64,000 nt of DNA, taken from positions 1,550,001 to 1,614,000 of the forward strand of contig NZ_CP031223.1 in assembly GCF_008973485.1 (NCBI RefSeq). The letters are read 5' to 3'. Shown here in pieces: positions 19,694 through 51,789 of this stretch. The DNA comes from Psychrobacillus glaciei (GTDB taxonomy: Bacteria; Bacillota; Bacilli; Bacillales_A; Planococcaceae). Each line of letters opens with the position of its first letter. Position 1 is the stretch's first letter. The notes beneath the pieces are model-generated. The model was not told where the DNA came from and did not search any database. It was given only the letters and a program-made list of their open reading frames with translations. Made by a program: the position numbers and the translations under genes.

Positions 19694-19703
19694 TTCAATT
19701 TTG

Positions 19704-20372
19704 CGTGTCTGTTAATTAGTTAATTATTCCTCATAACATATGTGAATTAACTAAAGTTAACCAACAAATTATATTTTTGAAATAGTGCGACTTAGTAACC
19801 GCTAGGATTTCCACTCTAGGCGGACGCTTTCCGCGGGGGGAGCGATGAGCCAGCACCGTCGCATGCGCGCCGCTGTGATGGCTCATTTGTCTCCCTGATC
19901 CCGCTGGAGTCGCCGCCTGCCGTTCCAATCCGATGAAGTTTGCTAGCTAATCAGTGCGGTTATCCAAAAATATTAAGGAGTATGCTCAACTTTGAAATAG
20001 TGCACCATTAATAAGTGCATCTCATACTAATTAAAGGGTTAAATAAGAGATGTTTGTCGTACTCGGAATAGGTTTTGTCGCTTTCAAAGGGTAGTATGTC
20101 GCGTTCAGAACCTGTTATGTCTCATTAAGCCATTTATTGGATTTTTTTTAGAAATGAGGATATTTATTGCCGGAGCGAGTCGCGCCGCATGAGCCGAAGG
20201 ATGAGACGCACTCGAGCGCAGCACGAGATGGCTCATGCAAGTGGAGCAAGTGCGTAGTTATTATGCGCACTATTTCTAAAGTGTCCAAAGTAAACCGAAA
20301 ACGTGTAAATGCAAATGGATTCTATGAACTTTTTTTACTAAAATGTAATATAAGCGTTAATAAACAGACGGG
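19704..20372. mobile_element. Repeat element, copy B, with 9-bp flanking direct repeat
   Basis: A non-coding element of ~669 bp flanked by the direct repeat TCAATTTTG (19695-19703 and 20373-20381). Outer ends GTCTGTT (19707) and AACAGAC (20363-20369) are inverted. The left flank holds a 10-bp-arm hairpin, TTAGTTAATT / AATTAACTAA (19716-19754). The core (19779-20276, 498 bp) is bounded by GAAATAGTGCG / CGCACTATTTC. It contains the GC-rich module 1 (GGCGGACGCTTTCCGCG ... CCGCTGGAGTCGCC, about 19810-19920), four iterons, and module 2 with GCATGAGCC / GGCTCATGC (about 20190-20240). Open frames here, including one of 81 codons, look like non-coding read-through. Confidence 0.7.
20055..20123 (-). 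repeat. Four iterons at exact 21-bp spacing in copy B
   Basis: TGTCGT (20055), TGTCGC (20076), TGTCGC (20097) and TGTCTC (20118) are each 21 bases apart; on the minus strand they read GAGACA, GCGACA, GCGACA, ACGACA. Two helical turns of spacing puts all four on one DNA face. Confidence 0.75.
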
Positions 20373-20627
20373 TCAATTTTGTTCAGAAATTCTATACATA
20401 ATGATATTCTAAATATATTGTGACGAGGTAATTCCGTCAAAGGTCTGAACTTCATGAAAAAATAGGGAGAAATCATAGTGATTCTTAGTACTTCATGATA
20501 AACTTATGAAGGAAAAAAGCATATAACTTCATATAGCAGAGGTTCACGCTCCTGCTATATGAAGTTAGAGCCTCAGGCGGATGTCACATATTTAAAATGG
20601 AGCTAGATCCATTCTAAATATGGGCAC

Positions 20628-20650
20628 AAATACGCCAAGGCGTATTTGAT
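20628..20650 (+). repeat. Short dispersed repeat, copy 2
   Basis: AAATACGCCAAGGCG (20628-20642) repeats the 15-mer at 10755; here it continues as TATTTGAT, making a full palindrome ATACGCC-AA-GGCGTAT. It lies just before the korA ribosome site. The rest of the 20382-20620 gap has a hairpin-prone AT-rich segment (CTTCATATAGCAG / CTGCTATATGAAG) and no gene. Confidence 0.55.
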
Positions 20651-20673
20651 AATGATAGTAAGGAGATGTTAGT

Positions 20674-22416
20674 ATGTTGCAACAACTTTCATGGAAAGTA
20701 GGCGGGCAGCAAGGAGAGGGTATCGAAAGTACTGGGGAGATTTTCTCAATGGCGATGAATCGCCTAGGGTATTACCTTTACGGATATCGTCATTTCTCTT
20801 CTCGTATTAAAGGTGGACATACGAATAATAAAATCTGCGTACGACCAACACAAGTTCGTACAATTCCGGATGATCTAGATATACTTGTAGCATTCGATCA
20901 AGAGACAATAGATGTTAATTACAAAGAGCTTACCGAAAAAAGTGTTATCTTAGCCGATGCTAAATTCTCACCAGTTTCACCAGAAAACTGCCTTGCACCA
21001 ATGTACATTGTACCTTTTACAGAAATTGCAGCAGAACTTGGTACGTCTTTAATGAAAAACATGGTTGCTATAGGAGCAACTTCCGCTTTATTGAAATTAG
21101 ATAAAGCAGTGTTTCAAGGTGTAGTTGATGAGATATTTGGTAAAAAAGGAACAGAAGTAGTAGAAAAAAATATGCAAGCAATTCAACAAGGTTTTGATAT
21201 TATGGCGGAGCAATTAGGCGATCGTTTAGGGGAATGGGAACTTGTTGCGGCTGACGGCAAGCATCGTATGTTCATGATTGGAAACGACGCGATTGCTCTT
21301 GGGGCATTAACAGCGGGTGTTCGATTCATGGCAGCTTATCCAATCACACCAGCATCTGAAATTATGGAATATATGATTAAGAAGCTGCCGTTATTTGGTG
21401 GAGCGGTTATTCAAACAGAAGATGAAATTGCAGCCGCAACGATGGCAATTGGTTCAAACTACGGTGGAGTACGTGCATTTACTGCATCAGCAGGACCGGG
21501 ATTATCCCTTATGATGGAAGCAATAGGTTTATCAGGGATGACGGAGCAACCACTTGTAATAGTCGATACACAACGGGGTGGACCATCAACTGGACTTCCA
21601 ACGAAACAAGAACAATCTGATCTTATGCAAATGATTTACGGTACGCATGGTGAAATTCCTAAAGTAGTTATTGCACCTAGTACAGGAGAAGAAGCTTTTT
21701 TTGATACGATTCAAGCTTTTAATATTGCAGAAGAATTACAATGTCCTGTAATCATTTTATCCGATCTTCAACTTTCTCTTGGTAAACAAACAGTAGAACC
21801 ATTTGACTATTCTAAAATTGAAATTCGACGTGGTAAATTAATTCAAAACGAAGAAATTCCACCGACAGAAGACAAATCGTATTTCAAACGATATGAAGTA
21901 ACAGAAGATGGTGTTTCACCTCGTGTACTTCCAGGTACGGAGTATGCAATTCACCACGTAACTGGTGTAGAGCATGATGAAACTGGAAAGCCTTCTGAAG
22001 CTGCAACAAATCGTATACTACAAATGGACAAGCGTTTAGGTAAGTTAAAACATATCAATTTCAGTGAACCTGTTTATGTAAATGCTCCTTATGAAGAAGC
22101 AGATATTTTATTCGTTGGATTTAATTCTACAAGAGGCGTGTTAGAAGAATTACAGCAGACACTTATTTCGCAAGGAATGAAAGTGAATCATGCACATATT
22201 CGATTAATTCATCCATTCCCGGTAAAAGAAATGGAAGCTCTAGTAGCAAATGCAAAAAAAATAGTCATAGTTGAAAATAATGCTACAGGCCAACTTGCCA
22301 ACATATTAAAAATGAATGTTGGCGGTCATGATAAAGTAGTAAATGTAACGAAGTACGATGGAACGCCTTTCTTACCATTACAGCTTGAAAAACAAGTAAA
22401 GGAGTTGCTTAACTAA
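20674..22416 (+). CDS. korA: 2-oxoacid:acceptor oxidoreductase, alpha subunit (KorA type)
   Basis: 580 aa with fused gamma and alpha regions, as in two-subunit 2-oxoglutarate (or other 2-oxoacid):ferredoxin oxidoreductases. The gamma part is residues ~1-190 (GGQQGEGIESTGEIF); the pyrimidine-binding alpha part begins around AAYPITPASEIMEYM. It forms a TPP enzyme with KorB that oxidatively decarboxylates a 2-oxoacid to the acyl-CoA. The korB start overlaps its stop by one base (TAATG). Exact substrate cannot be read from sequence alone. Confidence 0.9.
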   Translation: MLQQLSWKVGGQQGEGIESTGEIFSMAMNRLGYYLYGYRHFSSRIKGGHTNNKICVRPTQVRTIPDDLDILVAFDQETIDVNYKELTEKSVILADAKFSPVSPENCLAPMYIVPFTEIAAELGTSLMKNMVAIGATSALLKLDKAVFQGVVDEIFGKKGTEVVEKNMQAIQQGFDIMAEQLGDRLGEWELVAADGKHRMFMIGNDAIALGALTAGVRFMAAYPITPASEIMEYMIKKLPLFGGAVIQTEDEIAAATMAIGSNYGGVRAFTASAGPGLSLMMEAIGLSGMTEQPLVIVDTQRGGPSTGLPTKQEQSDLMQMIYGTHGEIPKVVIAPSTGEEAFFDTIQAFNIAEELQCPVIILSDLQLSLGKQTVEPFDYSKIEIRRGKLIQNEEIPPTEDKSYFKRYEVTEDGVSPRVLPGTEYAIHHVTGVEHDETGKPSEAATNRILQMDKRLGKLKHINFSEPVYVNAPYEEADILFVGFNSTRGVLEELQQTLISQGMKVNHAHIRLIHPFPVKEMEALVANAKKIVIVENNATGQLANILKMNVGGHDKVVNVTKYDGTPFLPLQLEKQVKELLN

Positions 22417-23282
22417 TGGTAACGTTTAAAGATTTTCGTAATAATGTAAAACCAAACTGGTGCCCAGGTTGCGGTGACTTTTCTGTTCAAGCAGCTATTC
22501 AACGTGCGGCTGCAAATGTTGGCATTCTGCCTCATGAATTAGCTGTAATCTCCGGTATTGGATGTTCAGGTCGTATTTCAGGGTATATTCACTCTTATGG
22601 GTTTCATGGTATCCACGGGAGAGCACTTCCAATTGCACAAGGGTTAAAAATGGCAAATAAAGATTTACACGTCATCGCATCTGGGGGAGACGGTGACGGT
22701 TTTGCCATAGGGCTTGGACATACGATTCATTCCATTCGTCGTAATATCGATGTAACCTATGTCGTAATGGATAACCAAATCTACGGATTAACTAAGGGTC
22801 AAACTTCTCCACGTTCTGCTGAAGGATTTAAAACTAAGTCAACTCCAGGAGGAGCAATTGAGCCTTCCCTTAAACCGCTTGAATTAGCACTTACTTCTGG
22901 TGCTACGTTTGTTGCACAAGGATTTTCATCCGATATTAAAGAACTAACTGCGATTATTGAAGCAGGTATTAACCATAAAGGTTTTTCATTTATTAATGTG
23001 TTTAGTCCATGTGTAACATACAACAAAGTAAATACGTATGATTGGTTTAAAGAACATTTAACGAAGCTTTCTAATATAGAAGGTTATGATCATACGAATC
23101 GGGAAGAAGCCATGCAAGTAGTAATGGAAAAAGAAGGTCTTGTAACAGGCATCATTTATCAAAATGAACATGCTCCATCTTATCAAGAACAAGTTCCAGG
23201 ATATGCAGAAACCCCACTTGCAGATCAAAATTTAAAAATGAGTGAAGAAGAATTTAACGTTTTATTGCAAGATTTTATGTAA
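22416..23282 (+). CDS. korB: 2-oxoacid:acceptor oxidoreductase, beta subunit (KorB type)
   Basis: 288 aa TPP-binding subunit. Visible motifs: WCPGCGDFSVQ at the N-terminus, GIGCSGRISGY, and the TPP/Mg segment GGDGDGFAIG followed by DNQIYGLTKGQTSPRS. It carries fewer cysteines than a typical 4Fe-4S subunit, in keeping with the KorB type. Translationally coupled to korA. The pair precedes miaB in several Bacillaceae (from memory). Confidence 0.9.
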   Translation: MVTFKDFRNNVKPNWCPGCGDFSVQAAIQRAAANVGILPHELAVISGIGCSGRISGYIHSYGFHGIHGRALPIAQGLKMANKDLHVIASGGDGDGFAIGLGHTIHSIRRNIDVTYVVMDNQIYGLTKGQTSPRSAEGFKTKSTPGGAIEPSLKPLELALTSGATFVAQGFSSDIKELTAIIEAGINHKGFSFINVFSPCVTYNKVNTYDWFKEHLTKLSNIEGYDHTNREEAMQVVMEKEGLVTGIIYQNEHAPSYQEQVPGYAETPLADQNLKMSEEEFNVLLQDFM

Positions 23283-23287
23283 TATGT

Positions 23288-23318
23288 AAGACTGCCGATG
23301 CAAATTGGTGGTCTTTTT
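23288..23318 (+). terminator. Terminator after korB
   Basis: AGACTGCC / GGTGGTCT (two wobble pairs) with a loop of about 11 bases, then TTTTTAT. Confidence 0.65.
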
Positions 23319-23431
23319 ATGTCTAATTAACAACTTTTAAGGTTAATACCTTGTAGCAATAGAGTGCTATTCAGTATAATAGTAGGATGGATATTCGTAT
23401 TTTTATACGAATGTACGAAAGGAGCGTTCTC

Positions 23432-24979
23432 ATGAACGAAGAATCACGTTTACTTAGTAGTCAAGTGAAAGACCCCAATTCTCCGGACAAAAAATCCGAA
23501 AAGGATTATAGTAAATATTTTCAAGCAATTTACACGCCTCCATCTTTAAAAGAAGCGAAAAAACGAGGAAAAGAAGAAGTAGCTTACCATAACGACTTTG
23601 CCATTGCCGAAGAATTTAGAGGTATGGGGCAAAATCGTAAATTTTATATACGCACATATGGCTGTCAAATGAATGAACACGATACAGAGGTAATGGCTGG
23701 TATATTCATGCAACTTGGATATGAACCAACAGATACTGTAGACGATGCAAATGTCATTCTTTTAAATACTTGTGCAATCCGTGAGAACGCAGAAAATAAA
23801 GTATTCGGAGAACTTGGCCATTTAAAGCATCTAAAGCAGAATAATCCAGATGTTCTAATAGGTGTATGTGGATGTATGTCTCAAGAAGAGTCTGTAGTCA
23901 ATAAAATTCTAAAAACATATAACCAAGTAGATATGATTTTTGGAACCCATAATATTCATCGTCTGCCTAACATCTTAAATGAGGCATATCTTTCGAAAGA
24001 AATGGTAATAGAAGTTTGGTCTAAAGAAGGCGACGTGATCGAAAACTTACCACGAGTGAGGAAGGGTTCGATTAAAGCCTGGGTTAATATTATGTATGGT
24101 TGTGATAAGTTCTGTACATATTGTATCGTTCCTTACACACGAGGAAAAGAGCGTAGTCGTCGACCAGAAGATATTATTCAAGAAATTAGACATCTTGCAG
24201 CGCAAGGCTATAAAGAAGTTACATTACTAGGTCAAAACGTAAATGCATACGGAAAAGACTTTGAAGATTTAGACTATCGCTTTGGAGATTTAATGGAAGA
24301 TCTTCGAAAAATAGATGTAGCACGTATACGTTTCATGACGAGCCACCCAAGAGATTTCGATGATCATCTAATCGAAGTGCTTGCAAAAGGTGGAAACTTA
24401 GTCGATCATATTCATTTACCTGTTCAGTCAGGTTCTTCTGAGATTTTGAAAATTATGGCGCGTAAATATTCCCGTGAGCATTATTTAGAACTTGTTAATA
24501 AAATAAAAACTGCCATTCCAAATGCATCTTTAACAACTGATATTATTGTAGGATTCCCAAATGAAACAGATGAGCAATTCGAAGAAACAATGTCTTTATA
24601 TAAAGAAGTAGGTTTTGAAATTGCGTATACGTATATTTATTCTCCAAGGGAAGGTACTCCAGCTGCAAAAATGGTAGATAATGTACCAATGGAAGTGAAA
24701 AAAGAGCGATTGCAGCGTCTAAACAAACTTGTAAATGACATGTCTGCTGAAGCAATGAAAAAGCATGATGGACAAATTGTGGAAGTGTTAGTAGAAGGAG
24801 AAAGTAAGAATAATCCGGATGTTCTAGCAGGATACACAAGTAAAAGTAAGCTAGTAAACTTTAAAGGACCAAAAGAAATTATTGGTCAACTCGTGCAAGT
24901 GAAAATTACGGATGCAAAAACATGGTCACTTACTGGAGAACTTGTGGAAGTACCAAATGGACAAAAGGTGGGAATATAA
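23432..24979 (+). CDS. miaB: tRNA-2-methylthio-N6-dimethylallyladenosine synthase MiaB
   Basis: 515 aa radical-SAM methylthiotransferase. The N-terminal UPF0004 domain has the three auxiliary-cluster cysteines ([27 protein letters not shown]); the radical-SAM motif is [16 protein letters not shown]; a C-terminal TRAM domain ends the protein. It thiolates A37 of tRNAs already modified by MiaA, encoded at 44.4 kb. ATG at 23432 is chosen for the AAAGGAG upstream. The ricA start overlaps its stop (TAATG). Confidence 0.95.
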
Positions 24980-25413
24980 TGACTACTAAGTATACAAAAG
25001 ACGATATTATTGAAAAAGCAAGAGAAATTGCCAAGATGATTGCAAACACAGAAGAAGTGGATTTCTTTAAGCGTGCAGAAGCTCAAATCAATGAAAATCA
25101 ATCCGTTCGAGAAAAAATTGCTAGTCTAAAAAGCTTACAAAAACAAGCAGTTAACTTTCAACATTTAGGGAAAGAAAAAGCATTAAAATTGATTGAAGGA
25201 AAGATTGAAGCAATCGAAGCAGAAATTGACGATCTACCAATTGTTCAGGAGTTTAAACAATCTCAAGGAGATGTAAACAGTCTTCTACAAATGGTTGCGA
25301 ATTCAATCTCTAACAATGTGACAAATCAAATAATAGAGGCAACAGATGGAGACTTACTAAGAGGCGAAACTGGTTCTCAAGTAAGAAACTCTACACCAGG
25401 TAGTTGCTCATAA
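24979..25413 (+). CDS. ricA: RicA (YmcA), RicAFT complex subunit
   Basis: 144 aa, mostly helical, YlbF/YmcA family. With RicF and RicT it forms an Fe-S complex that works with RNase Y in mRNA processing and promotes biofilm formation, competence and sporulation. The short C-terminus ends in a cysteine-containing NSTPGSCS, compatible with the cluster-binding tail. The ATG overlaps the miaB TAA by one base. In B. subtilis cotE follows directly; here ~10 kb intervene. Confidence 0.92.
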   Translation: MTTKYTKDDIIEKAREIAKMIANTEEVDFFKRAEAQINENQSVREKIASLKSLQKQAVNFQHLGKEKALKLIEGKIEAIEAEIDDLPIVQEFKQSQGDVNSLLQMVANSISNNVTNQIIEATDGDLLRGETGSQVRNSTPGSCS

Positions 25414-25423
25414 ATAAATGAAG

Positions 25424-25463
25424 AAAACGTACATTCATCGATATGATGACTGTGCGTTTTTTC
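25424..25463 (+). terminator. Terminator after ricA
   Basis: AAAACGTACA / TGTGCGTTTT extended by an inner TTCATC / GATGA pairing, followed by TTTTTTCG. Confidence 0.75.
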
Positions 25464-25556
25464 GTTGCTTTAAAGAACTATTAAAACTCGAGGGGAACAT
25501 ATCACTAAATATTTGTACGCATAGTATACATAAGGTTTTATTTTTCTAAACCGTTA

Positions 25557-25955
25557 TTAGTTTTTCGTTAAAATTAGCTTTTCTGTTTTATCTTCCCAAT
25601 TGATTTTTATAGAAATACTTTCACCATCTACAAGTTGTAAACTTTCGTTAGAAGTTGTTGGCTTTGTGCTATAAATTATACCGCTTTTATCAAGAGGGGA
25701 GTTTGTAGCTTTTCTGTTGCTAACTCTTAAGGAAATATCATAGTCAATCGTTTCAGGAACTTTATCCTTGCTAATATAAGCTATAGTATAAGACGTAGTT
25801 GATTCTCCGAAATCGTAACTAGCTCGCCAATTCTCACTTTCACCTTGATAAGTTGCCACTTTACCTTTTTTGCTGCAGGCTACAAGGAGTGCAAGAACTA
25901 ACATGGTTACCAAAATCATCCAGAACTTTTCATTTAGCACCTCTTTTAATAACAT
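25557..25955 (-). CDS. Small predicted lipoprotein, unknown function
   Basis: Up to 132 aa. A hydrophobic stretch (FWMILVTMLVLALLVACSKKG) with lipobox LLVAC marks a lipoprotein; the remaining ~100 residues are polar with alternating hydrophobics (beta-rich). I do not recognise the family. The start is unsure: the ATG at 25955 has no clear ribosome site, a GTG at 25940 overlaps AAAGAGGTG, and an ATG lies at 25919. It opens the accessory block between ricA and cotE. The ~290 bases upstream (25956-26246) show no gene. Confidence 0.7.
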   Translation of the reverse strand: MLLKEVLNEKFWMILVTMLVLALLVACSKKGKVATYQGESENWRASYDFGESTTSYTIAYISKDKVPETIDYDISLRVSNRKATNSPLDKSGIIYSTKPTTSNESLQLVDGESISIKINWEDKTEKLILTKN

Positions 25956-26246
25956 TTTTATTATGTGTACGTTTTGATTTGTGAATAGTTTTAATTTATC
26001 GCGATTTCAAGTATCCAAAACAAGTCTAAAAACATATTATATCCGTATTTTAAGTTTTGATGATTTAAGTAGTATAAACAATTCGGTATAATGAGGATAG
26101 ACTATCATGCAGAGTTGTGAAGAAACTTTTTTATCCCCCGAAGATTCTTCATCTTGCTTCAAATTAAAGGAGTTTTTTTATGAATTGTCCAATTTGATCC
26201 CTTAAAATACATTCAATATACATCTTGAATTAATGGGGGGATTATA

Positions 26247-27440
26247 ATGAAATTAAATAAAAATTTTCGTTTTTTAATGCTTGGCCAAACTTTAGCTAAT
26301 CTAGGTGATGTATTTTATATCGTTAGCATCATTAGTGTTTTATACAAGTTAACGAGCTCTGCAACTGTTGCTGCATTTGTTCCATTTACAATTACTTCTG
26401 CGATGTTCATTTCTAGTATTATTACACCTTTAGTAATTGGCAAGTGGCGTTTAAAATCGGTGTTATTAGCATCGCAGATTGGAAAAACCATTTTACTAGT
26501 GGGATTAGGTGCTTTTATTTTACTATTTTTACAAGATATGAACTATTACTTTATCTTTTTCATCATTGCCGGAATAGCATTTTTAGATGGCTGTGCGAAT
26601 CCTATTTTGCATACTCTTATTCCTTACTATGTAGAAGATGAGCAGTTGATCAAAGCTAATAGTATTGCAGAGTCCCTTACACAAATGATTCAAATAGGTG
26701 GATGGCTTTTCGGTGGTCTTTTATTGCTCGTTATAAGCTCTATTCAATTAATAGGCATTGTAAGTGTACTATTTATGCTGTCCTGTGTATTATTGGCCTT
26801 CATTCAACACGTGGATTATGTCGACAAAGAAAAACAAAAACTTTGGGAACAGCTCACCGGAGGGTGGAAAAGTATTGGAGCAACTCCAGTTCTGAAAAAA
26901 ATAGTTCAAATGGACATTATAGAAACTATTGCTGGAACGGTGTGGATTGCTGCAATTGTTTATGTATTTGTAGAACAAGCACTACATGTAGGCGAACAAT
27001 GGTGGGGCCTTATAAATGGTTCATTCTTTATTGGGTTATTAATAGGTAGTCTATATTGTATTAAATTCCCTAATCTTGTTGATCAATATAAGTACCTTTT
27101 TATTTTCGCGGGAGTCATAATCTCTAGTATCTTAACTATATTATTTGGTACAACAAGCCATCCTGTTATAGCGTTAATTTTGTCGTTTGGTATTGGTTTG
27201 TTTGGTCAGCTTAAAAATATTCCACAAAGAACGGTTATTCAAAGAAGTATTTCTGTTGAAAAATTAGTAACTGTTTATACATCTATGGGAACAGTTGCAA
27301 CCGGAGTTTTTGGAATTTCTTCTTTAGTAATTGGAATACTTGCAGATCACCTAGGCGTGCGTGCTGTATTTATATTTTCAGGATTATTATTGGCAATAGT
27401 AAGTATTATTGCATATCGAAACAAAAAATTATTCGTATAG
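26247..27440 (+). CDS. MFS transporter, unknown substrate
   Basis: 397 aa with about 12 membrane segments and a short MFS-like N-terminus (MLGQTLANLGDVFYIVSIISVLYKLTSSATVAA). Family resemblance is to the MFS_3/enterobactin-exporter-like group often annotated as macrolide efflux. The sequence does not show a substrate. GGGGGG ribosome site 7 bases before the ATG. It has no operon partner. Confidence 0.82.
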   Translation: MKLNKNFRFLMLGQTLANLGDVFYIVSIISVLYKLTSSATVAAFVPFTITSAMFISSIITPLVIGKWRLKSVLLASQIGKTILLVGLGAFILLFLQDMNYYFIFFIIAGIAFLDGCANPILHTLIPYYVEDEQLIKANSIAESLTQMIQIGGWLFGGLLLLVISSIQLIGIVSVLFMLSCVLLAFIQHVDYVDKEKQKLWEQLTGGWKSIGATPVLKKIVQMDIIETIAGTVWIAAIVYVFVEQALHVGEQWWGLINGSFFIGLLIGSLYCIKFPNLVDQYKYLFIFAGVIISSILTILFGTTSHPVIALILSFGIGLFGQLKNIPQRTVIQRSISVEKLVTVYTSMGTVATGVFGISSLVIGILADHLGVRAVFIFSGLLLAIVSIIAYRNKKLFV

Positions 27441-27448
27441 TTTTTGAT

Positions 27449-27480
27449 AAGAGTGTCCACAACAGGGCACTCTTCCTTTC
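27449..27480 (+). terminator. Terminator after MFS gene
   Basis: AAGAGTG / CACTCTT stem enclosing TCC...GGG, followed by a CT-rich tail; the T run is weak. Confidence 0.5.
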
Positions 27481-27576
27481 ATGTCATAATATCATCACAA
27501 CTTCATGGTTCATTGTACTTGTATCTTATAAACTATTTCTTCTATGATGGTAGAAGTAGCAGAAGGGGTGACAGTT

Positions 27577-28632
27577 ATGTTAAAAGAAGCAGAAGATTTT
27601 ATACGAACTTTTTATTATGAAACGGGCCAATCGGAACAGGAAATGCAGTCTCGTTTACTTGAGATAGAGATTCAGATTGTAAAATATGGAAGTTATGAAC
27701 AAACGATTGAAGAAATTACATACGGTGCTAAAATGGCATGGCGTAATAGTAATAAATGTATAGGTCGGTTATTTTGGCAAAGTTTGAACGTTTTTGATAA
27801 ACGAGACTTACATACAGAGGAAGAAATATTTAAAGCATTACTAGAGCACATTCAGTTTGCGACAAATGAAGGAAGAATTAGACCGACAATTAGCCTATTC
27901 TCACCTCATGATATTCGTATCTGGAACCATCAATTAATTCGCTATGCAGGCTATGAAACGGAAAAAGGAATAATTGGTGATCCAGATTCGATAGCGTTTA
28001 CGAAAAAATGCCAGGAACTTGGATGGAAAGGTAATAACGAACGGTTTGATGTATTGCCACTTGTCATTCAAACAAAGAATAATCAGCCTAAATTATTTGA
28101 AATTCCAAAAGAATATATTCTAGAAGTGCCAATTCGTCACCCGGAACACAAGTTGTTTGAGGAGCTACAAGTAAAATGGTATGCAGTTCCAATAATTTCA
28201 AGTATGAAACTAGAAGTTGGAGGTATTACTTATCCAACAGCACCATTCAACGGATGGTATATGGGAACGGAAATAGGTGCCCGTAATTTGGCAGATGATA
28301 ACCGCTATAATATGCTACCTACAATTGCAGAGAACATGGGACTAAACACGAAATCCAATGCTTCCCTTTGGAAGGATCGTGCATTAGTAGAACTAAATGC
28401 GGCTGTATTATTTTCCTTTAAAGAAGATGGTGTAAGTATCGTGGACCATCATACTGCAGCTCAACAATTTAAGAGGTTTGAGTCAAATGAAATGGATGCA
28501 GGCCGTGATGTAACAGGAAACTGGACTTGGCTAATTCCACCATTATCACCTGGAACAACGCATATTTTTCACAAACCTTATAATAATGAAAAGAAAACTC
28601 CAAATTATTTTTACCAACCATCTCCATATTAA
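27577..28632 (+). CDS. nos: Bacterial nitric oxide synthase oxygenase
   Basis: 351 aa, oxygenase domain only. It oxidises L-arginine to citrulline and NO using a heme and tetrahydrobiopterin or tetrahydrofolate. The proximal heme cysteine is at about residue 61 in WRNSNKCIGRLFW; the substrate glutamate lies in GWYMGTEIGARNL. There is no reductase domain or adjacent reductase, so electrons must come from general flavodoxin or ferredoxin reductases, as known for B. subtilis NOS. The ATG at 27577 is chosen for the AAGGGGTG upstream. The strong terminator after it shows a single-gene unit. Confidence 0.95.
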   Translation: MLKEAEDFIRTFYYETGQSEQEMQSRLLEIEIQIVKYGSYEQTIEEITYGAKMAWRNSNKCIGRLFWQSLNVFDKRDLHTEEEIFKALLEHIQFATNEGRIRPTISLFSPHDIRIWNHQLIRYAGYETEKGIIGDPDSIAFTKKCQELGWKGNNERFDVLPLVIQTKNNQPKLFEIPKEYILEVPIRHPEHKLFEELQVKWYAVPIISSMKLEVGGITYPTAPFNGWYMGTEIGARNLADDNRYNMLPTIAENMGLNTKSNASLWKDRALVELNAAVLFSFKEDGVSIVDHHTAAQQFKRFESNEMDAGRDVTGNWTWLIPPLSPGTTHIFHKPYNNEKKTPNYFYQPSPY

Positions 28633-28674
28633 AAAGAGGAATCAGCATATAAACTTGCTGATTCCTCTTTTTTT
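28631..28674 (+). terminator. Rho-independent terminator after nos
   Basis: Stem AAAAGAGGAATCAGCA / TGCTGATTCCTCTTTT, followed by further Ts. Confidence 0.92.
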
Positions 28675-28684
28675 AGAAAGTATA

Positions 28685-28880: not shown

Positions 28881-28894
28881 GAGACAAGACGCAC

Positions 28895-34510: not shown

Positions 34511-34517
34511 ACTTTTC

Positions 34518-38543: not shown

Positions 38544-38563
38544 CCAAAAAGTAGGGGAACAGA

Positions 38564-41853
<3,290 letters not shown>

Positions 41854-43497: not shown

Positions 43498-43504
43498 AAG
43501 CGTA

Positions 43505-44425
43505 TTGAAATCAATTTTACAAGTAGAAATGTCAGATGGTCATCACATTCATGTAGTGAAGTATACTCCTGAACAATCTCCAATAGGTCATATACATTTA
43601 CTACACGGCATGGCGGAGCATATTGACCGTTATGACGAATTTGCTCTCTTTCTTATGGATAAAGGGTATTTAGTAAGTGGGCATGACCATAGAGGGCATG
43701 GTCGAACCTTTGAAAAAAATGGGCACCAAGGTTATTTTGCTGAATCCAATGGATTTGAACGTATAACAGAAGATGTACGAGAAGTGTTGCTCAAAGTTCG
43801 AGAGGATATGATAGGGGTACCACTTATTTTATTTGGTCATAGTATGGGTTCTTTTATTGCTCGAAGATATATGCAAAAATACAGTGATTCTCTCTCAAAA
43901 GTAATTATTTGTGGCACCTCTTATAGTCCTGGAGTCCTTGGAGATGTTGGGTCAATGCTTGGGAAAATTGCTACTAGATTTCAGACACCAACAACGGAAA
44001 GTAAATTACTCAATACTATAACTTTTGGAGGATTTAATAAACAAATTAATGAACCTCATTCACCATTCGATTGGTTAAATACAGATAAAATGGAAGTAAA
44101 AAAATATATGGACGATCCGATGTGTGGGTTCATCCCGTCTAATCAGTTTTATGTTGATTTGTTTTATGGGTTGAAATTGATTCATAAAACAGAAGAGATC
44201 GGCCGCATTAAAAAAGATTTACCTGTTCTTCTCATTAGTGGAGCAGAGGATCCGGTAGGTAAAAATGGAGCTGGCATATTTAAAGTAGCGAAAGGTTTGA
44301 CAAATGCAGGTATGGAAAATATAACCGTTCAATTAGTAGAACAAGCAAGGCATGAAATTTTATTGGAAAAAAATAAATTGGATACTTTTGAAGTAATTGC
44401 AAAATGGCTGATGACTAATGCGTGA
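43505..44425 (+). CDS. Alpha/beta hydrolase, monoglyceride lipase / lysophospholipase-like
   Basis: 306 aa serine hydrolase (Hydrolase_4). [17 protein letters not shown] is the typical opening, GHDHRGHG the oxyanion region, FGHSMGSF the nucleophile elbow; the acid and His are in ISGAEDPVG and [11 protein letters not shown] start at 43505 with GGGAG 11 bases before it. Placed right after glpKD, so it may release glycerol or glycerophosphate from lipids; this is an inference. miaA overlaps its end by 8 bases. Confidence 0.87.
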
Positions 44426-45338
44426 AAAACCATTCGTAATAGCAATTGTAGGTCCGACGGCAGTCGGAAAAACCGCACTAAGTATTGAATTAGCAAAAAC
44501 TTGTAATGGTGAAATTATTAACGGTGATTCCATGCAAGTGTATCGTGGATTATCCATTGGAACCGCTAAAATTGATTTCGAAGAGATGGAAGGGGTTCCT
44601 CATCATTTATTAGATATTAAAAATCCGACAGATAGTTTTTCGGTAGCGGAATATCAAAAAATGGTGCGACAGAAAATTGAGGAAATTACTTCGCGAGGTC
44701 ATGTGCCAATTATTGTTGGAGGAACGGGGCTTTATATACAATCGGTATTATACGATTTTAGGTTTTCGGAAGAACCAAAAACAGATAGTACTTTATCGAA
44801 GGAATTGGAACAATTGTCGTCAGAAGTGTTGTTTGAAAGATTAACTAAGTTAGATCCTATTGCTGCGACAGAAATTCATCCGAATAATGTGCAAAGAGTT
44901 ATGCGAGCGATCGAGCGGGTAGTGTTAAGCGGAAAAAGAAAAGATCAGATAGAACAAAATCAAGGGCATGAAAAGGTTTTTCCTCATCACATTATTGGTC
45001 TTTCTATCGATCGAGCGCTGCTTTATGAAAGAATTAATAAAAGAGTTGATATTATGTTGGAAAAGGGATTACTTCGAGAAGTAACCGGGCTTTACAATCA
45101 AAATATTCGACAGGTCCAGTCGATTCAAGCGATTGGGTATAAAGAAATTTATGATTATTTGGAAGGGCATCTTACTTTTGAGGAAGCAATTGATAACTTA
45201 AAGCAAAATTCTAGAAGGTACGCCAAACGCCAACTAACTTATTTTCGAAATAAGATGGATATCCATTGGTATAATCCATTTACTGATACAGAAAGAATTA
45301 TGAAAGAAATTAATGAGATTTTGCAGGAGATTCACTAA
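44418..45338 (+). CDS. miaA: tRNA dimethylallyltransferase MiaA
   Basis: 306 aa; transfers the dimethylallyl group to A37 of UNN-reading tRNAs, the step before MiaB. P-loop [29 protein letters not shown], and the QAIGYKEI region are present. The ATG overlaps the hydrolase stop. miaA-hfq order is conserved in Bacilli. Confidence 0.96.
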
Positions 45339-45401
45339 AAAGAGCGAATAGTAGTAAAGATAGATTCTTTACGATGTAAAATGAATAATGGGGGTATTGG
45401 G

Positions 45402-45623
45402 ATGAAACCAATAAATATTCAAGATAATTTTTTAAATCAATTAAGAAAAAATGATATTTTTGTAACCGTATTTTTACTAAACGGCTTTCAGTTAAAAGGG
45501 TATATTAAATCGTATGATAATTTTACTGTGTTGCTTGAATCAGAAGGTAAACAACAGTTAATTTATAAACATGCTATTTCAACTTTCGCTCCATCTAAAT
45601 CAGTCAATATTAATGTTGAATAG
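45402..45623 (+). CDS. hfq: RNA chaperone Hfq
   Basis: 73 aa from the ATG at 45402. Sm1 ([23 protein letters not shown]) and Sm2 with YKHAIST are intact; there is almost no C-terminal tail, as in other Gram-positive Hfq. An in-frame ATG at 45381 would add seven residues but has no ribosome site. Confidence 0.95.
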
Positions 45624-45633
45624 TATTTAACAA

Positions 45634-45662
45634 TTGACATATAGAATTGTTCCTATTACTAT
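45634..45662 (+). promoter_or_regulatory. Promoter of the rhodanese gene
   Basis: TTGACA (45634-45639), 17-base spacer, TACTAT (45657-45662), 35 bases before the ATG. Confidence 0.65.
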
Positions 45663-45697
45663 TTGTAGGAATATACATGGAAAGTGGCGATTGAATT

Positions 45698-45997
45698 ATG
45701 AATTTAATAACAACTGAAGAACTCTTGCAAAAGTTAGATGCTGGTGAACAATTCAGTATTATTGATGTACGTGAAAACGAAGAGGTAGCAAATGGAATGA
45801 TTCCAGGAGCAGTACATATCGCTTTAGGTCAAATTGAGTCCAAGTTCGATCAAATTGACAAGTCTACTTCACAATATATTGTTTGTAGATCTGGAGGACG
45901 TAGTGCTATGGCTTGCGAAATTCTAGAGGAAAACGGTTTTAATGTAACAAATGTGGTTGGTGGAATGTTGGATTGGGAAGGCGAATTACAGTTTTAA
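45698..45997 (+). CDS. Rhodanese-like sulfurtransferase domain protein
   Basis: 99 aa single rhodanese domain. The active-site loop is CRSGGRS (YIVCRSGGRSAMACEIL), so a persulfide can form. IIDVRENEEVANGMIPGA is the usual N-terminal motif. It may carry sulfur in the cytosol; acceptor unknown. Own promoter and terminator. Confidence 0.9.
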   Translation: MNLITTEELLQKLDAGEQFSIIDVRENEEVANGMIPGAVHIALGQIESKFDQIDKSTSQYIVCRSGGRSAMACEILEENGFNVTNVVGGMLDWEGELQF

Positions 45998-46003
45998 GAA
46001 TAA

Positions 46004-46045
46004 AAGAGAAAGGCTAATTTCACTTTGGAATTAGTCTTTTCTATT
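46004..46045 (+). terminator. Terminator after rhodanese gene
   Basis: AAAGGCTAATTT / GAATTAGTCTTTT with a short loop, then CTATTTG. Confidence 0.7.
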
Positions 46046-46077
46046 TGTAATGAAAACAACTTTCAGGAGAGAATGAA

Positions 46078-47328
46078 ATGAATTTTATAACAACATTATC
46101 AAAAGAAGTAATCGAGTTAGCAGAAAATATGGAAGCGAAAATTGCGAGCTTCCACAAAGATATAGAAAAAATCGCTTTTTATAATCAACAAAAAGTAATT
46201 TCCGCATTTAAATCGCATCATGTAAGTGACCATCATTTTCATACTTCTACTGGCTACGGCTATGACGACGAAGGTCGGGATACATTGGAAAAAGTATATG
46301 CGACAACATTCGGTGCAGAAGCGGCTCTTGTCAGACCCCAAATCATATCAGGTACACATGCGATTTCGATTAGTTTGTTTGGTATATTGCGTCCGAATGA
46401 TGAATTGCTTTACATAACAGGAAAACCATATGATACGCTTCAGTCGATTGTGGACGGTGGTGGGGAAGATACAGGATCATTAGCAGATTTTGGTATATCT
46501 TATCAGCATGTTGATTTGCTAGAAACAGGGGCAGTTGACTGGGGAGTGGTAGAAAATGCAGTAAAAGATAATACGAAAGTAATTGCCATACAACGTTCGA
46601 AAGGGTATGCAGTCAGACCATCTTTTACAGTAGAACAAATTAAGGACATGGTGCAAAAAATTAGATCAATAAAAAAAGATGCAATCATTTTTGTAGATAA
46701 TTGCTACGGAGAATTTGTTGAAGAGCTAGAACCTACGAATGTTGGAGTCGATTTAATGGCTGGTTCACTTATAAAAAATCCAGGTGGTGGTCTTGCTAAA
46801 ACAGGAGGATATATAGCTGGTAAAACGGAATTTGTGACGAAATGCGCATACAGAATGACATCACCAGGAATTGGAGCGGAAGCTGGTGCTTCTCTAAATA
46901 CGTTATTAGATATGTACCAAGGATTTTTCCTAGCTCCTCATATTGTTTCGCAAGCTGTAAAAGGGGCCATTTTTACTTCTGCAGTTTTAGAAGAAGTAGG
47001 GATGAAAACAGAACCACATTTTTCTGAGAAAAGAACAGATCTGATTCAATCGGTTTCGTTTCAGACAGCTGAACAAATGATTCAATTTTGTAAAGCAATT
47101 CAACTACATTCCCCTGTAAATGCTCAATTTGCCCCAGAGCCTGCTTATATGCCAGGCTATGAAGACGATGTTATTATGGCCGCAGGAACCTTCATTCAAG
47201 GATCTAGCATGGAATTAACCGCAGACGGGCCAATCCGTCCACCTTTTACTGCTTTTATTCAAGGTGGTTTGACATATGAACACGTTAAATATGCTATTTT
47301 AGGAGCTGTCCAAACGTTGTACAAATAA
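46078..47328 (+). CDS. ynbB: YnbB, PLP-dependent enzyme (methionine gamma-lyase family / 'aluminium resistance')
   Basis: 416 aa fold-type I PLP protein. The probable Schiff-base lysine is in GSLIKNPGGGLAKTGGYIAG; GYGYDDEGRDTLEKVYA near the N-terminus is the family hallmark. The true reaction is not settled; it is annotated both as a C-S lyase-like enzyme and as aluminium resistance protein. In B. subtilis ynbB also lies before glnR. Confidence 0.9.
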   Translation: MNFITTLSKEVIELAENMEAKIASFHKDIEKIAFYNQQKVISAFKSHHVSDHHFHTSTGYGYDDEGRDTLEKVYATTFGAEAALVRPQIISGTHAISISLFGILRPNDELLYITGKPYDTLQSIVDGGGEDTGSLADFGISYQHVDLLETGAVDWGVVENAVKDNTKVIAIQRSKGYAVRPSFTVEQIKDMVQKIRSIKKDAIIFVDNCYGEFVEELEPTNVGVDLMAGSLIKNPGGGLAKTGGYIAGKTEFVTKCAYRMTSPGIGAEAGASLNTLLDMYQGFFLAPHIVSQAVKGAIFTSAVLEEVGMKTEPHFSEKRTDLIQSVSFQTAEQMIQFCKAIQLHSPVNAQFAPEPAYMPGYEDDVIMAAGTFIQGSSMELTADGPIRPPFTAFIQGGLTYEHVKYAILGAVQTLYK

Positions 47329-47337
47329 GCAATTACT

Positions 47338-47371
47338 CCACTTTCAAGATAAAAAGAAAGTGGTTTTTTTA
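47338..47371 (+). terminator. Rho-independent terminator after ynbB
   Basis: CCACTTTC / GAAAGTGG with a 10-base loop, then seven Ts. Confidence 0.87.
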
Positions 47372-47385
47372 TTTATATTGTTCTA

Positions 47386-47436
47386 TGTTAGTTTACCTAA
47401 CATCAAATTGACAAGAAAGCTGACATGATATATAGT
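47386..47436 (+). promoter_or_regulatory. glnRA promoter with tandem GlnR/TnrA-type boxes
   Basis: TGTTA-N7-TAACA (47386-47402) is a perfect match to the GlnR/TnrA consensus TGTNA-N7-TNACA. TGACA-N7-TGACA (47409-47425) is a near match. The second overlaps the -35 TTGACA (47408-47413); TATAGT follows after 17 bases (47431-47436). This is the usual arrangement for nitrogen control of glnRA. Confidence 0.85.
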
Positions 47437-47464
47437 GTTATTATATTCAACTGGGGGTGCAGGG

Positions 47465-47875
47465 ATGGAAAAGGAATGGAGACGTTCGATGGCTTTGTTA
47501 TCTATGAATATCGTGATGCAGTTAACAGGTTTAACAGCAAGGCAAATTCGTTATTATGAAGAGCACAAACTAGTCCTACCTGCACGAACAGAAGGAAAGC
47601 AGCGTATGTTTTCGCTGGATGATGTCGATCTTTTATTAGAAATAAAAGATATGATATCCTCAGGAGTGAACATTGCGGGTATTAAACAAATATTTGAAAT
47701 GAAAAACAATCCAACTTCCACCAAAGAAGTGCAACAAGCTATTTCCGATGCACAATTACGAGCAATCTTCAGAGAAGAAATGCAAATTGCGCAAAGACAC
47801 CAACGTGCATCACTAAGACAAGGGAACTCTCTCGCTTTTAAAGTTAAAACGGGGTTCATATATAAAAATCAATAG
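47465..47875 (+). CDS. glnR: Glutamine synthetase repressor GlnR
   Basis: 136 aa MerR-family regulator. N-terminal winged helix with MQLTGLTARQIRYYEEHKLVLPAR; the short C-terminal tail would sense feedback-inhibited glutamine synthetase. The ATG at 47465 after a GGGGGTGCAGGG ribosome region is preferred over an upstream frame extension to 47435. It precedes glnA by 12 bases and binds its own promoter. Confidence 0.95.
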   Translation: MEKEWRRSMALLSMNIVMQLTGLTARQIRYYEEHKLVLPARTEGKQRMFSLDDVDLLLEIKDMISSGVNIAGIKQIFEMKNNPTSTKEVQQAISDAQLRAIFREEMQIAQRHQRASLRQGNSLAFKVKTGFIYKNQ

Positions 47876-47887
47876 GAGAGTGAAATA

Positions 47888-49222
47888 ATGAGCAAGTATA
47901 CAAAAGAAGACATAAAAAAATTCGTTCAAGAAAATGAGGTGAATTTTATTCGTCTTCAGTTTACTGACATCCTTGGTACGATTAAAAACGTTGAAATTCC
48001 AGTGAGTCAGCTCGATAAAGCTCTCGACAATAAAATGATGTTTGATGGCTCTTCTATTGAAGGGTTCGTTCGCATTGAAGAATCGGATATGTACTTAGTA
48101 CCAGATTTAAATTCATGGGTAGTGTTTCCTTGGATTACAGGTACAGGTAAAGTTGCTAGACTAATCTGTGACGTGAATAAAGCAGATGGAACACCTTTTG
48201 CTGGAGATCCACGTAATAACTTAAAACGAGTTCTAAAAGAGATGGAAGAGTTAGGATTTACAAGTTTTAACTTAGGACCTGAACCTGAATTTTTCTTATT
48301 TAAACTAGATGCACAAGGAGAACCTACGCTTGAACTAAATGACCATGGCGGTTATTTTGACCTAGCGCCAGTAGATTTAGGTGAAAATTGCCGTCGTGAT
48401 ATAGTACTTGAGCTAGAGGAGATGGGTTTTGAAATTGAAGCATCTCACCATGAAGAAGCTCCTGGACAACACGAGATAGACTTTAAATATGCAGATGCAT
48501 TAACTGCTTGTGATAACATCCAAACATTCAAGTTAGTAGTTAAAACAATTGCTCGTAAACATGGTTTACATGCAACGTTTATGCCAAAACCACTTTTTGG
48601 AGTAGCTGGATCTGGAATGCACTTTAACATTTCTCTGTTTAAAGGTGAAGAAAATGCATTTTTTGATGAATCCGCTGAAAATAAAATGAGTGAAACTTCT
48701 ATGCAGTTTATGGCGGGGGTATTAAAGCATGTACAAAGTTTTACAGCTATTACAAATCCTACAGTAAATTCCTATAAACGATTAATACCAGGTTATGAAG
48801 CTCCTTGTTACGTTGCTTGGTCAGGTCAAAATAGAAGTCCTTTAATTCGTATTCCTTCTTCAAGAGGCTTAAGCACTCGTATTGAAGTTCGTTCTGTTGA
48901 CCCTGCTGCAAATCCATATCTTGCTATGGCGGTTATTCTACAAGCAGGACTAGATGGAATTAAAAACAAATTAACACCACCACCTGCAGTGGATCGCAAT
49001 ATTTATGTCATGACCGAAGAAGAAAGAAATGAACATGGTGTTTACAACTTGCCATCTTCACTTCATGCAGCCATTAAAGAACTAGGTAAAAATGAAATAA
49101 TTCGTGGTGCACTAGGTGAGCATATTTACGCAAACTTTGTAGAAGCAAAAGAGATTGAATGGGATATGTTTAGAACGGCTGTTCATCCGTGGGAAAGAGA
49201 ACAGTATTTGAAGATGTACTAA
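47888..49222 (+). CDS. glnA: Glutamine synthetase type I (GSI-alpha)
   Basis: 444 aa, dodecameric enzyme making glutamine from glutamate, ammonia and [33 protein letters not shown] and [19 protein letters not shown] carry the metal and ATP sites. The length and lack of an adenylylation loop Tyr fit the Bacillus GSI-alpha form, controlled by feedback and by GlnR/TnrA. Confidence 0.97.
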
Positions 49223-49358
49223 GCTTATAAACACTAGGTTTATGGGGTATATTGATGAGGTGGTTTAATCTAAATGATTCTGCAAAATCTTTCACAATCC
49301 ATACGAAACCCATAAAATAAGTAAAGAAAATAATATTTATCAACTTATGTAATTCCTT

Positions 49359-49415
49359 AAAAACATCGTTCAGAGTCGTGAGTTGACTTGTTCGGTGTTT
49401 TTCTTTTTTATTTTT
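49359..49415 (+). terminator. Terminator after glnA
   Basis: AAAAACATCG / CGGTGTTTTT outer stem with a partly paired interior, then TTCTTTTTTATTTTT. It lies ~135 bases after the stop; the gap between holds nothing clear. Confidence 0.7.
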
Positions 49416-49533
49416 GAAAACATGCTTTAAGAATACTGGGGGTAGAACACGGGGAAAAAGTAATTGAACTAGTTCATTGTTAGACGTCAGCAAAGCGTTT
49501 AATATGAAGTGATGTGCTCCATCTAAAAATTTC

Positions 49534-49611
49534 GTGCATAAATCAATTTTCTCAGTGCTTCTCTCATATGCTTGAACCCCTCTAGTGCAAGGTTATCTCG
49601 AGTTTATGCAC
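49534..49611. repeat. Inverted repeat GTGCATAAA / TTTATGCAC
   Basis: Perfect 9-bp arms (49534-49542 and 49603-49611) enclose 60 bases. Origin unknown; possibly the remnant of a small element. Confidence 0.4.
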
Positions 49612-49619
49612 TTTTCATG

Positions 49620-49646
49620 AAAAAAGACAGGTCATAAAACCTGTCT
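49620..49646 (-). terminator. Terminator of the YjcZ-like gene
   Basis: AGACAGGT / ACCTGTCT 8-bp stem with a 6-base loop; on the minus strand a T run follows. Confidence 0.85.
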
Positions 49647-49681
49647 CAGATGTATTCGAGATATTGGCTTTAAGCCCTTAA

Positions 49682-49864
49682 TTAGCAACCGCAACCGTAT
49701 CCACCGCCGTAACCGCCGCCGCAATATCCTCCTGCGTTTCCGCCACCAGTGTTTAAGAAACTTGCGCCAATAATAATCAAAAGAATAAACAGAACAATAA
49801 TTAAAGCGAATCCTGAACCATTTCTTTGCCCGTATCCACCAACTGCTTCACTCAAATTGTACAC
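49682..49864 (-). CDS. YjcZ-family small sporulation peptide
   Basis: 60 aa with the YjcZ core (GFALIIVLFILLIIIGASF), one membrane helix, and a Gly/Cys/Tyr-rich tail (GGGYGGGYGCGC). Such short proteins are made during sporulation in Bacillales; precise role unknown. The ribosome site AGGAGGTG is 6-7 bases before the ATG on the minus strand. The next stretch on its 5' side (49865-50262) shows no gene. Confidence 0.85.
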   Translation of the reverse strand: MYNLSEAVGGYGQRNGSGFALIIVLFILLIIIGASFLNTGGGNAGGYCGGGYGGGYGCGC

Positions 49865-50262
49865 CTCCTCTATATGGGATAGTTCATTCTATGTCGATTA
49901 AAAAAGTCTGTGTGATTAATCTGTTTGGTTTTTAGAAAATATTTTAAAGAGGCATTCTGTTGACTGGTGCTTTTGAGACTAAAAAAACAGACGCCTCTCA
50001 AGGGTGGTGTGGTGGTGTGACAAGTAGTTTTATATGATAGCTTATTCAATTATTAGAAAAGCATCAGGGCGTTGTTCTTAGGGGAAATTAATAAAGTAAG
50101 CTATTTGTAAGAAGCATTCCGTTATAATTTTGATAAAAAAGCTATACTTATTTTTAAAGGTATATAAACGTGGGTAGAGAGGGTTGAGTTGCTATTCCTT
50201 TTTAACTATTGATAATAATATAGTAAGACCGATAACAATAGAAATAGGTTAGAGGTGTTAAT

Positions 50263-50634
50263 GTGGATATTAATGAATTAATGAAAAAAATGAATGAAGT
50301 TATGGACAATCTAGATTTTGTTTCTGCAAGAAAAATTATGGAAGAAAATATGAAAATAATTAATGAAAATAGACATCTTCTAAGAAGTAATGCAAGGTCA
50401 TTGTTACAGATTTTGAAAGATAATACTGAACCGCACATAAAACCATTAAATAGAAATGAAATGAGTGTGGTTCATGCCATCAATGCATATGCTTCAAAAT
50501 TTGATGTTAGAGGTTTGAGAATGTCGATCAAAAGCAATTCGGTTCTTTTGATGAGAAAAGACATAAAGCAATATTTGAACGAAGATGCGAAAACATTATT
50601 AATTGGAATGAAAGCTATCCATATCGATGAATAA
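50263..50634 (+). CDS. Hypothetical protein, helical
   Basis: 123 aa from a GTG with GAGGTG upstream. The sequence is charged and helical (MDINELMKKMNEVMDNLDF at the start) with no signal peptide or membrane segment, rich in Asn, Met and Lys. I do not recognise the family. It stands alone on the plus strand in the gene-poor region after glnA. Confidence 0.6.
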   Translation: MDINELMKKMNEVMDNLDFVSARKIMEENMKIINENRHLLRSNARSLLQILKDNTEPHIKPLNRNEMSVVHAINAYASKFDVRGLRMSIKSNSVLLMRKDIKQYLNEDAKTLLIGMKAIHIDE

Positions 50635-50835
50635 GTCTATTCTATTCCAGGTTTGTTGATTAACCACTTTTTTACCAGTCGTTCCTTCCTTATTTTTGCC
50701 AAGAATTACGACTCGTGTGGAGGTGTTGTGTAAGAAAGTGACGCTTACTTTCGATACAAGTGATTCTATAATAAACTGAATATATTTTTTGGAAAAAGGA
50801 AGAAGGGAACCAAATTATTATTTCATTTGAGACTT

Positions 50836-50997
50836 TCATTTGCCATTAAAAAGGTGGTTTTGCTCGTCCTGTTGCAAAATAGTTAAAGCCTCATTTAATA
50901 GATAAATATCTATTAGTATTTGCTCTTTAATAGACAAATTGTCGCATTTATCGTAATCATCTAATAAAAGTTTGAGTTCATGCTTCATAAGTGTCAT
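50836..50997 (-). CDS. Possible 53-aa small protein
   Basis: An open frame starting ATG (50997) with GGGATC upstream and ending TGA (50836). The peptide begins MTLMKHELKLLLDDYDK and has an amphipathic helical pattern (LSIKEQILIDIYLLNEALT). The size and acidic/helical character resemble small Bacillus regulators, but no signature such as the Spo0E-phosphatase motif is present. The ribosome site is fair, and coding is not proven. Confidence 0.4.
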   Translation of the reverse strand: MTLMKHELKLLLDDYDKCDNLSIKEQILIDIYLLNEALTILQQDEQNHLFNGK

Positions 50998-51122
50998 AGG
51001 TCATTGATCCCTTCTTTGGTTCTTTATAATTACTTTTATTATGCGCTATTTTTGGGGAAAAAGAAATAGTTGAATTTTAGTCTAATTAAAGATTTTTGTA
51101 TTAGTTTTTTTACTTTTAACCA

Positions 51123-51789
51123 GGTCTGTTGATTAGCTAATTATTCCTAATAACATATGTGAATTAACTAAAGATAACCAACAAATTATATTTTAGAAAT
51201 AATGCCCAGTATTCCTCCGCGTTTGCCGCACCTTGCATGAGCCAACTCGTGCTGCGCCCGAGTGGGTCTCTTCCATCCGCTCATGCGGCCCGAAGCGTTC
51301 TGGCAATATGTATCCTCATTTTATAAAAAAATCCAATAAATGGTTGAATGAGACATAACAGGTTATAAACGCGACATACTACCCTTTGAAAACGACAAAA
51401 CTTATTCTGGGAGCGACAAACATCTCATGGTAAAGCCTTTACTTGGCATGAGATACGCTATTAATGGTGCACCATTTCAATGTGTAGCATATGCCTTAAT
51501 ATTGTAGGATAATCGCACTGATTAGCTAGCAAACTTCATTGGATTAGAGCGGCTGGCGGCAACTCCAGCGGGATCAGGGAGATGTATAAGCCATCACAAG
51601 CTGAGCGCATGCGATGGTGCTGGCTCAACGGTCCCGCCCCGCGCAAAGTGTCCGCCTAGAGTGGAAATCCTAGCGGTTACTAAGTCGCACTATATCTAAA
51701 GTGCCCAATTTAAACTAAAAACGTGTAAATGCAAATGGATTCTATTAACTTTTTTACTAAAATTAAAGGAAATGGTTAATAAATAGACG
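51123..51789. mobile_element. Repeat element, copy C (core inverted relative to copy B)
   Basis: The outer flanks match copy B in the same orientation: left, GTCTGTTGATTAG and the AACATATGTGAATTAACTAA segment (51124-51190); right, AACGTGTAAATGCAAATGGA (about 51720-51739) to AATAGAC (51782-51788). The ~500-bp core between the inner repeats (51196-51696) is the reverse complement of copy B's core: the GCATGAGCC-type module comes first, then the iterons, then the module ending GTTACTAAGTCGCAC. TAACCA (51117-51122 and 51790-51795) may be a short target duplication. No coding sequence. Confidence 0.7.
51350..51418 (+). repeat. Four iterons at exact 21-bp spacing in copy C
   Basis: GAGACA (51350), GCGACA (51371), ACGACA (51392) and GCGACA (51413), each 21 bases apart; they correspond to the four in copy B read on the opposite strand. 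A CATCTCATGG ... GGCATGAGATAC inverted repeat follows. Confidence 0.75.

Follow-up and report, generated by a model that had tools for sequence, protein, structure and literature searches.

Candidate nested miniature elements with cores in both orientations on the chromosome of Psychrobacillus glaciei

Results

Two repeat copies with the same flanks and opposite cores

The genome of Psychrobacillus glaciei consists of two contigs (4.35 Mb), and the stretch analyzed here, hereafter called the window, is the 64,000 nucleotides at bases 1550001-1614000 of the larger contig. One protein encoded in the window has its nearest named relatives mostly in Psychrobacillus, at 91-95% identity. The window contains two copies of a non-coding repeat, designated B and C, in which an inner core is held between outer flanks. 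Copy B lies between spoVS (SpoVS) and a gene for a 2-oxoacid:acceptor oxidoreductase. The gap at this locus is 1125 bases in the window and 205 to 1440 bases in ten related Psychrobacillus loci, where the flanks of B had no match (0/10) and a 30-base core fragment was found in one of the ten.

An earlier reading made from the sequence alone (the sequence-only reading) had proposed that B and C share flanks in the same orientation and carry cores of about 500 bp in opposite orientations. This was borne out by a repeat search, in which the flanks appeared as direct repeats (D1, 82 nt, 93%; D2, 70 nt, 90%; D6, 40 nt, 80%) and the cores as inverted repeats (I1, 228 nt, 84%; I2, 140 nt, 87%; I3, 64 nt, 94%). 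The positions of the copies held, and their exact ends were refined. Copy B (19704..20372, + strand) belongs to outer element class O1 and is composed of the modules O1b, P, midS-, S-, and O1a-. It is bounded by outer ends and a 9-bp target duplication, the left copy of which (TCAATTTTG, 19695..19703, + strand) matches the right copy (20373..20381, + strand) at 9/9 positions. Copy C (51121..51791, + strand) belongs to the same class and has the duplications ACTTTTAAC and ACCATTAAC (7/9). The core of B (19779..20276, + strand, 498 nt) has its P end on the left and its S end on the right, and its middle is designated + in the alpha-to-beta frame of the outer element. The core of C (51196..51696, - strand, 501 nt) has its S end on the left and its P end on the right, and is thus inverted relative to B. 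Inner inverted repeats were present as proposed, except that the left one of C reads GAAATAATGCC instead of ending in GCG.

A third composite, which the sequence-only reading did not include, is located at 14518..15329 (+ strand). It belongs to outer class O2 and has the duplications AAGCAGTCT and AAGCAGCAT (7/9). Its inner core (14599..15254, - strand) is of the mid4 type with the middle - in the alpha-to-beta frame, and its inner ends (GATATAATGCG) have TA on both sides.

As that reading had also stated for the elements themselves, no recombinase was found in or adjoining B or C among the open reading frames (ORFs) listed. YneB, encoded at least 7 kb from B or C, was considered as an inverter and rejected, because it matches the YneB-family equivalog NF049883 (338 bits, with a cut-off of 175), is of a housekeeping type, and nothing ties it to the elements. 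No match in the window reached the Rfam gathering score.

The outer layer

Ends resembling CACGTCTGTTGATTA are present at both ends of 34 elements and form inverted terminal repeats; elements with ends differing by more than 5 bases were dropped from this set. A 9-bp target duplication matching at 7 or more of 9 positions was observed in 29 of the 34 elements, compared with 0.4% of mismatched pairs. The mean duplication match was 0.86 at 9 bp and 0.31-0.375 at 8, 10, and 11 bp. Therefore, the outer unit, which resembles a miniature inverted-repeat transposable element (MITE), appears to transpose with its contents included. An outer element without a core is located at 3267031 and has a 9/9 duplication. 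A second coreless outer element, at 420690, has TCATAGCTTTT on both sides, which fits a 9-bp duplication only when the right end is placed two bases further out. In a search for an insertion sequence sharing the outer ends, no transposase-bearing partner was recognized among the matches listed of 131 (58 by control).

A 3.2-kb stretch lies between outer-type ends at 854-4072 of locus L201 (1848853-1852071 in the own genome). By eye, its ORFs include an acetyltransferase-like gene, a cupin-type gene, and a transposase fragment, and the stretch may represent a relative of the outer element that carries cargo. Two other composites contain an IS4-family insertion sequence with a 452 aa transposase (NF033592), at approximately 860-2500 of L249 and 1422-3062 of L250. 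The two copies of this insertion sequence are 99.5% identical, with 10-base direct repeats seen by eye.

Bounds and types of the inner core

The cores start with GAAATAGTGCG or GATATAATGCG and end with the complement. In O1, the inner inverted repeats are approximately 15 bp long (TTTAGAAATAGTGCG and its complement). The dinucleotide TA was found at 46 of the 51 scored O1 and O2 inner junctions, and the rest were TT (4) and CA (1). Four types of core middle (midS, mid2, mid3, and mid4) and several end types (P, Q, S, and others) were distinguished, and the cores of B and C have P and S ends. The sequence around TA in the six target contexts (O1, O2, O3, and three other sites) is closer to a palindrome than at random TA sites of the window, with 29/60 matching positions against approximately 16 expected (p 0.0003, post hoc). 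Because such a target is symmetric, a preferred core orientation would not be expected.

The core of B has some internal structure. A copy of the inner end motif (GAAATAGTGCAC) can be read in mid-core at 19994..20005 (+ strand), as if the core itself were built of nested units, and a similar motif is present in mid3. The P end contains a GC-rich arm of approximately 125 bp (19806..19930, + strand) that appears to be a motif of its own and has matches in many related genomes, where positions 103-227 of the query are matched. As a single DNA strand, the B core (19775-20276) has a predicted folding energy of -84.2 kcal/mol compared with -63.6 kcal/mol for shuffled sequences (z -4.6). A segment of approximately 60 bp (AGGCCAACAGGATGTTGGTCACG...), noted in L035 (1420-2350) and in other cores, interrupts the GC-rich arm in five S-type cores (D, F, G, H, and I), but not in B and C; it is present in P-Q cores too.

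Family size and orientation across the chromosome

A genome search with B gave at least 88 matches, far above chance, with 40 of the 153 first-look candidates scored. The left flank alone had 14 genomic matches and the right flank 15, the two weakest of which belong to O4, a relative without this core. The element set, which is a collection and no census, was gathered by core, flank, and end searches. The stretches of the own genome were merged into 62 pieces (274,886 bases) and annotated with a module library, in which 54 clusters contained at least two modules and 43 of these included a flank module of O1, O2, or O3. Cores are found in three outer classes, namely O1 (B and C), O2 (including the composite at 14518-15329 of the window), and O3. 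An exact 26-mer of the O1 right end had no match in genome_contigs. Across the genus, the O1 right end was found in the own genome and, weakly, once in G010, where alignment to O4 copies suggests a coreless relative. Matches to B were obtained in at least 28 of 61 genomes, counting the own genome and scoring no more than 9 candidates in each; many matches in relatives comprise the GC-rich arm only.

The orientation of the middle relative to the outer alpha-to-beta direction was scored in 37 complete elements after 7 incomplete clusters were dropped. Both core orientations relative to the flanks were found: 16 elements were +, 20 were -, and one was undetermined. Each class contains both, with 5 +, 6 -, and the undetermined one in O1, 5 + and 7 - in O2, 5 + and 7 - in O3, and one + in an O3/O4 mosaic. 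Two signs in O3 are doubtful, those of 1108754 (counted as -), where the beta module matched at both ends, and 2794182 (counted as +), where the middle matches in both directions. Among the complete O1 elements with midS, two are oriented like B and six like C, and the ends of three partial or deleted copies agree with C. In the related genome G013, the Q arm is beside alpha in one of three O2-like copies and away from it in the other two, as judged from weak module matches; the O2-like copy on contig C53 has a 9/9 duplication.

These counts bear on the possibility that faulty assembly gave B and C their opposite orientation. B and C are repeats, which are the kind of sequence where such an error may arise. 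However, pairs of S-type cores are 82-91% identical (copy J aside) and are easy to distinguish, B and C each have their own target duplications, and opposite placements occur in three classes and, with the weaker module matches, in G013. We therefore regard an assembly error as very improbable.

Independent movement of mid3 cores

Twelve mid3 cores were compared, which lie in O1, O2, and O3 or at three sites that lack O1-O4 flanks. Their pairwise identities are 89.6-99.5%, or 93.6-99.5% when the outlier 1704230 is omitted. The O2 flanks of the same mid3-bearing copies are 69.2-85.4% identical. The mid3 cores, which are more alike than these flanks, are younger than the O2 flanks. At the three sites without O1-O4 flanks, the mid3 cores have TA on both sides. 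In a tree, the grouping of O2-borne mid3 cores as one clade was rejected (p 0.000345 in the approximately unbiased (AU) test), and the mid3 core at 605398 was the sister of the O2 core at 3089689 (99/92). The grouping of the three + mid3 copies within outer classes as a clade was weakly rejected (p 0.041).

Two mosaics were also observed. In 1471446, mid3 is joined to a mid4 core at a motif that resembles an inner end by eye, and in 1524873, P-type ends stand on both sides of a mid3 middle. Cores therefore appear to have been rearranged at their ends and arms as well. Such mosaics are in line with homologous recombination or gene conversion between dispersed copies, by which cores would be swapped and the donor would pair either way round through the GC-rich arms of P-Q cores, which are inverted repeats. 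The P and Q arms do cross-match as inverted repeats, and the core and flank identities imply core replacement inside older O2 elements. However, the S and P arms of B and C have only the short inner end in common, which is too little for such pairing. Reversal of the middle extends to the outermost P- and Q-specific bases in most mid3 copies, and mid3 cores are also found at the sites without O1-O4 flanks, with TA on both sides. Homologous exchange is thus a possible but doubtful source of the opposite cores.

Core turnover at an orthologous site

The site at 2732024 was searched with joined flanks in 19 genomes of the genus, and 12 other species could be aligned. In nine of them, the flanks are separated by 20 bases or less, and in the remaining three (G004, G008, and G009) by 55 to 246 bases. 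Part of the GC-rich motif is present at this site in G004 and G008, and in G008 the motif is bare. The left flank is conserved up to one common TA in the own genome, G011, and G010 (100, 85, and 87%, respectively, by BLAST), beyond which three different core starts follow. In this comparison, the G010 core runs off the end of its contig, and the right junction of G011 was assigned by visual matching. G006, G013, G016, and G017 carry other inserts at the site or lack a clear match to the core. When the G011 core was aligned globally with the own core in the two directions, the scores (238 and 278) and identities (76.9% and 76.4%) did not tell its direction.

Discussion

We consider it likely, from these sequence comparisons, that B and C each consist of two non-coding mobile layers, in which the inner unit moves by itself and is acquired or exchanged at a fixed TA either way round. 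The sequence-only reading had offered two options, inversion of the core in place or a separate mobile element inserted both ways. The latter is best supported, by the presence of mid3 in three outer classes and at three other sites, by the younger age of these cores relative to the O2 flanks, and by the different cores found at the same TA in three species. The former received no direct support, and for the S-type cores of A and B the tree leaves room for a single flip.

The outer MITE-like unit would transpose with its contents and generate the 9-bp target duplication, whereas the inner unit would move alone and settle at one fixed TA per outer class. There, a core could be acquired or exchanged in one orientation or the other, and the probable reason is that the target sequence around TA comes close to a palindrome and that the two ends of the core form inverted repeats. 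Since the core would be taken up either way round, composites with the same flanks can hold opposite cores. A transposase acting on the inner ends may drive the movement, and the orientation would be a matter of chance without a regulatory role. Core exchange at the fixed TA probably occurs, and the replacement of an older core may be common besides insertion into an empty site. A further version of this process would treat the outer elements as fixed TA docking sites, where a putative recombinase recognizes the inner inverted repeats and both exchanges and inverts cores supplied from all over the chromosome. The outer elements would then change more slowly than the identity and orientation of the cores in them. 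We think this version improbable.

Several observations weigh against the two-layer interpretation. The genome had no match to the DDE_3 transposase (PF13358, IS630-type), which was detected in 3 of 14 control genomes, or to the HTH_38 transposase (PF13936, IS30-type), which was detected in all 14. Coreless O1 or O2 elements were not found among the candidates scored. A search of the 19 genomes of the genus for empty O2 elements gave no match across the joint, with 40 candidates scored out of 93 in the own genome and out of 41-44 in each of three others. O1 and O2 contribute 4 and 3 of 10 to the palindrome score, which is near background. At 2732024, the species with an empty site also lack approximately 45 bp to the left and 55 bp to the right of the own core; therefore, the core there too seems to sit in a larger insert. 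Finally, the comparison of midS cores gave no sign that B and C themselves acquired their cores separately. The midS type was found in O1 only, where cores (82-91% identical, copy J aside) and flanks (84-95% on the left, 72-95% on the right) show about the same divergence. A tree of nine midS cores is nearly a star, in which A and B as one flip have a support of 42/72.

This last point is where an in-place flip has to be considered, in which a site-specific recombinase, or strand switching at short repeats, between the inner inverted repeats would turn the core inside the outer element. The confinement of S-type middles to O1 in both orientations, the exact breakpoints at the inner repeats, and the co-divergence of core and flanks in the S-type group are all consistent with it, and the forward copies A and B may be one flip (47% of bootstrap trees). 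An initial count of derived core substitutions in common (2 for A/B, 6 for B/C, and 18 for G/H) had given rise to the idea that the forward S cores prove repeated flips; this was withdrawn, because the tree is nearly a star and one flip is possible. On the other side, the elements lack a recombinase, YneB is a housekeeping-type protein, and each locus is known in one orientation, with one genome per species. Moreover, mid3 cores move between contexts, and a dedicated inverter is therefore unnecessary. We judge an in-place flip to be unlikely, and prefer the acquisition or exchange of a separately mobile core.

The proposed core partly resembles known elements. MITEs derived from IS630/Tc1-mariner transposons have short inverted ends and TA duplications. 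The core is similar to them in its short inverted ends flanked by TA, but differs in its fixed place inside outer elements, its internal hairpin arms, and the lack of a DDE_3 match in the genome. Invertible segments of the Hin/Gin/Mpi type lie between short inverted repeats and occur in both orientations. In contrast to them, the present elements contain no recombinase, and the two orientations are found at different loci.

The sequence-only reading knew of no described system with this layout. Nesting of such a sort has been described for the BOX, RUP, and SPRITE repeats of Streptococcus pneumoniae (PMC3049150). The ends of RUP are said there to be similar to those of IS630-Spn1 (PMC3049150). 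The present family differs from these repeats in that a single cassette is located at one fixed TA per class in three outer classes, where it is found either way round and turns over, and in that no ends common with an insertion sequence were found among the matches listed. IS30 is said to insert into hot spots that are almost palindromic or beside its own inverted repeats (PMC9333248). The target strands are attacked 2 bp apart, and the products are insertions, deletions, and inversions (PMC9333248). The core may be like IS30 in part, but it is non-coding and no HTH_38 match was found in its genome. The element family itself was not found in the literature searched, mostly titles and the starts of abstracts, and no paper with the three motif strings was found. 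The elements may therefore be described as MITE-in-MITE composites, a variant of nested MITEs, whose nesting as such was already known.

Apparent inversions between repeat copies can come from a second mobile element housed inside the first. With mid3 cores up to 99.5% identical, the movement or exchange of a non-coding cassette is testable in a cultured bacterium. Docking-site exchange, if true, would be an unusual route of MITE diversification.

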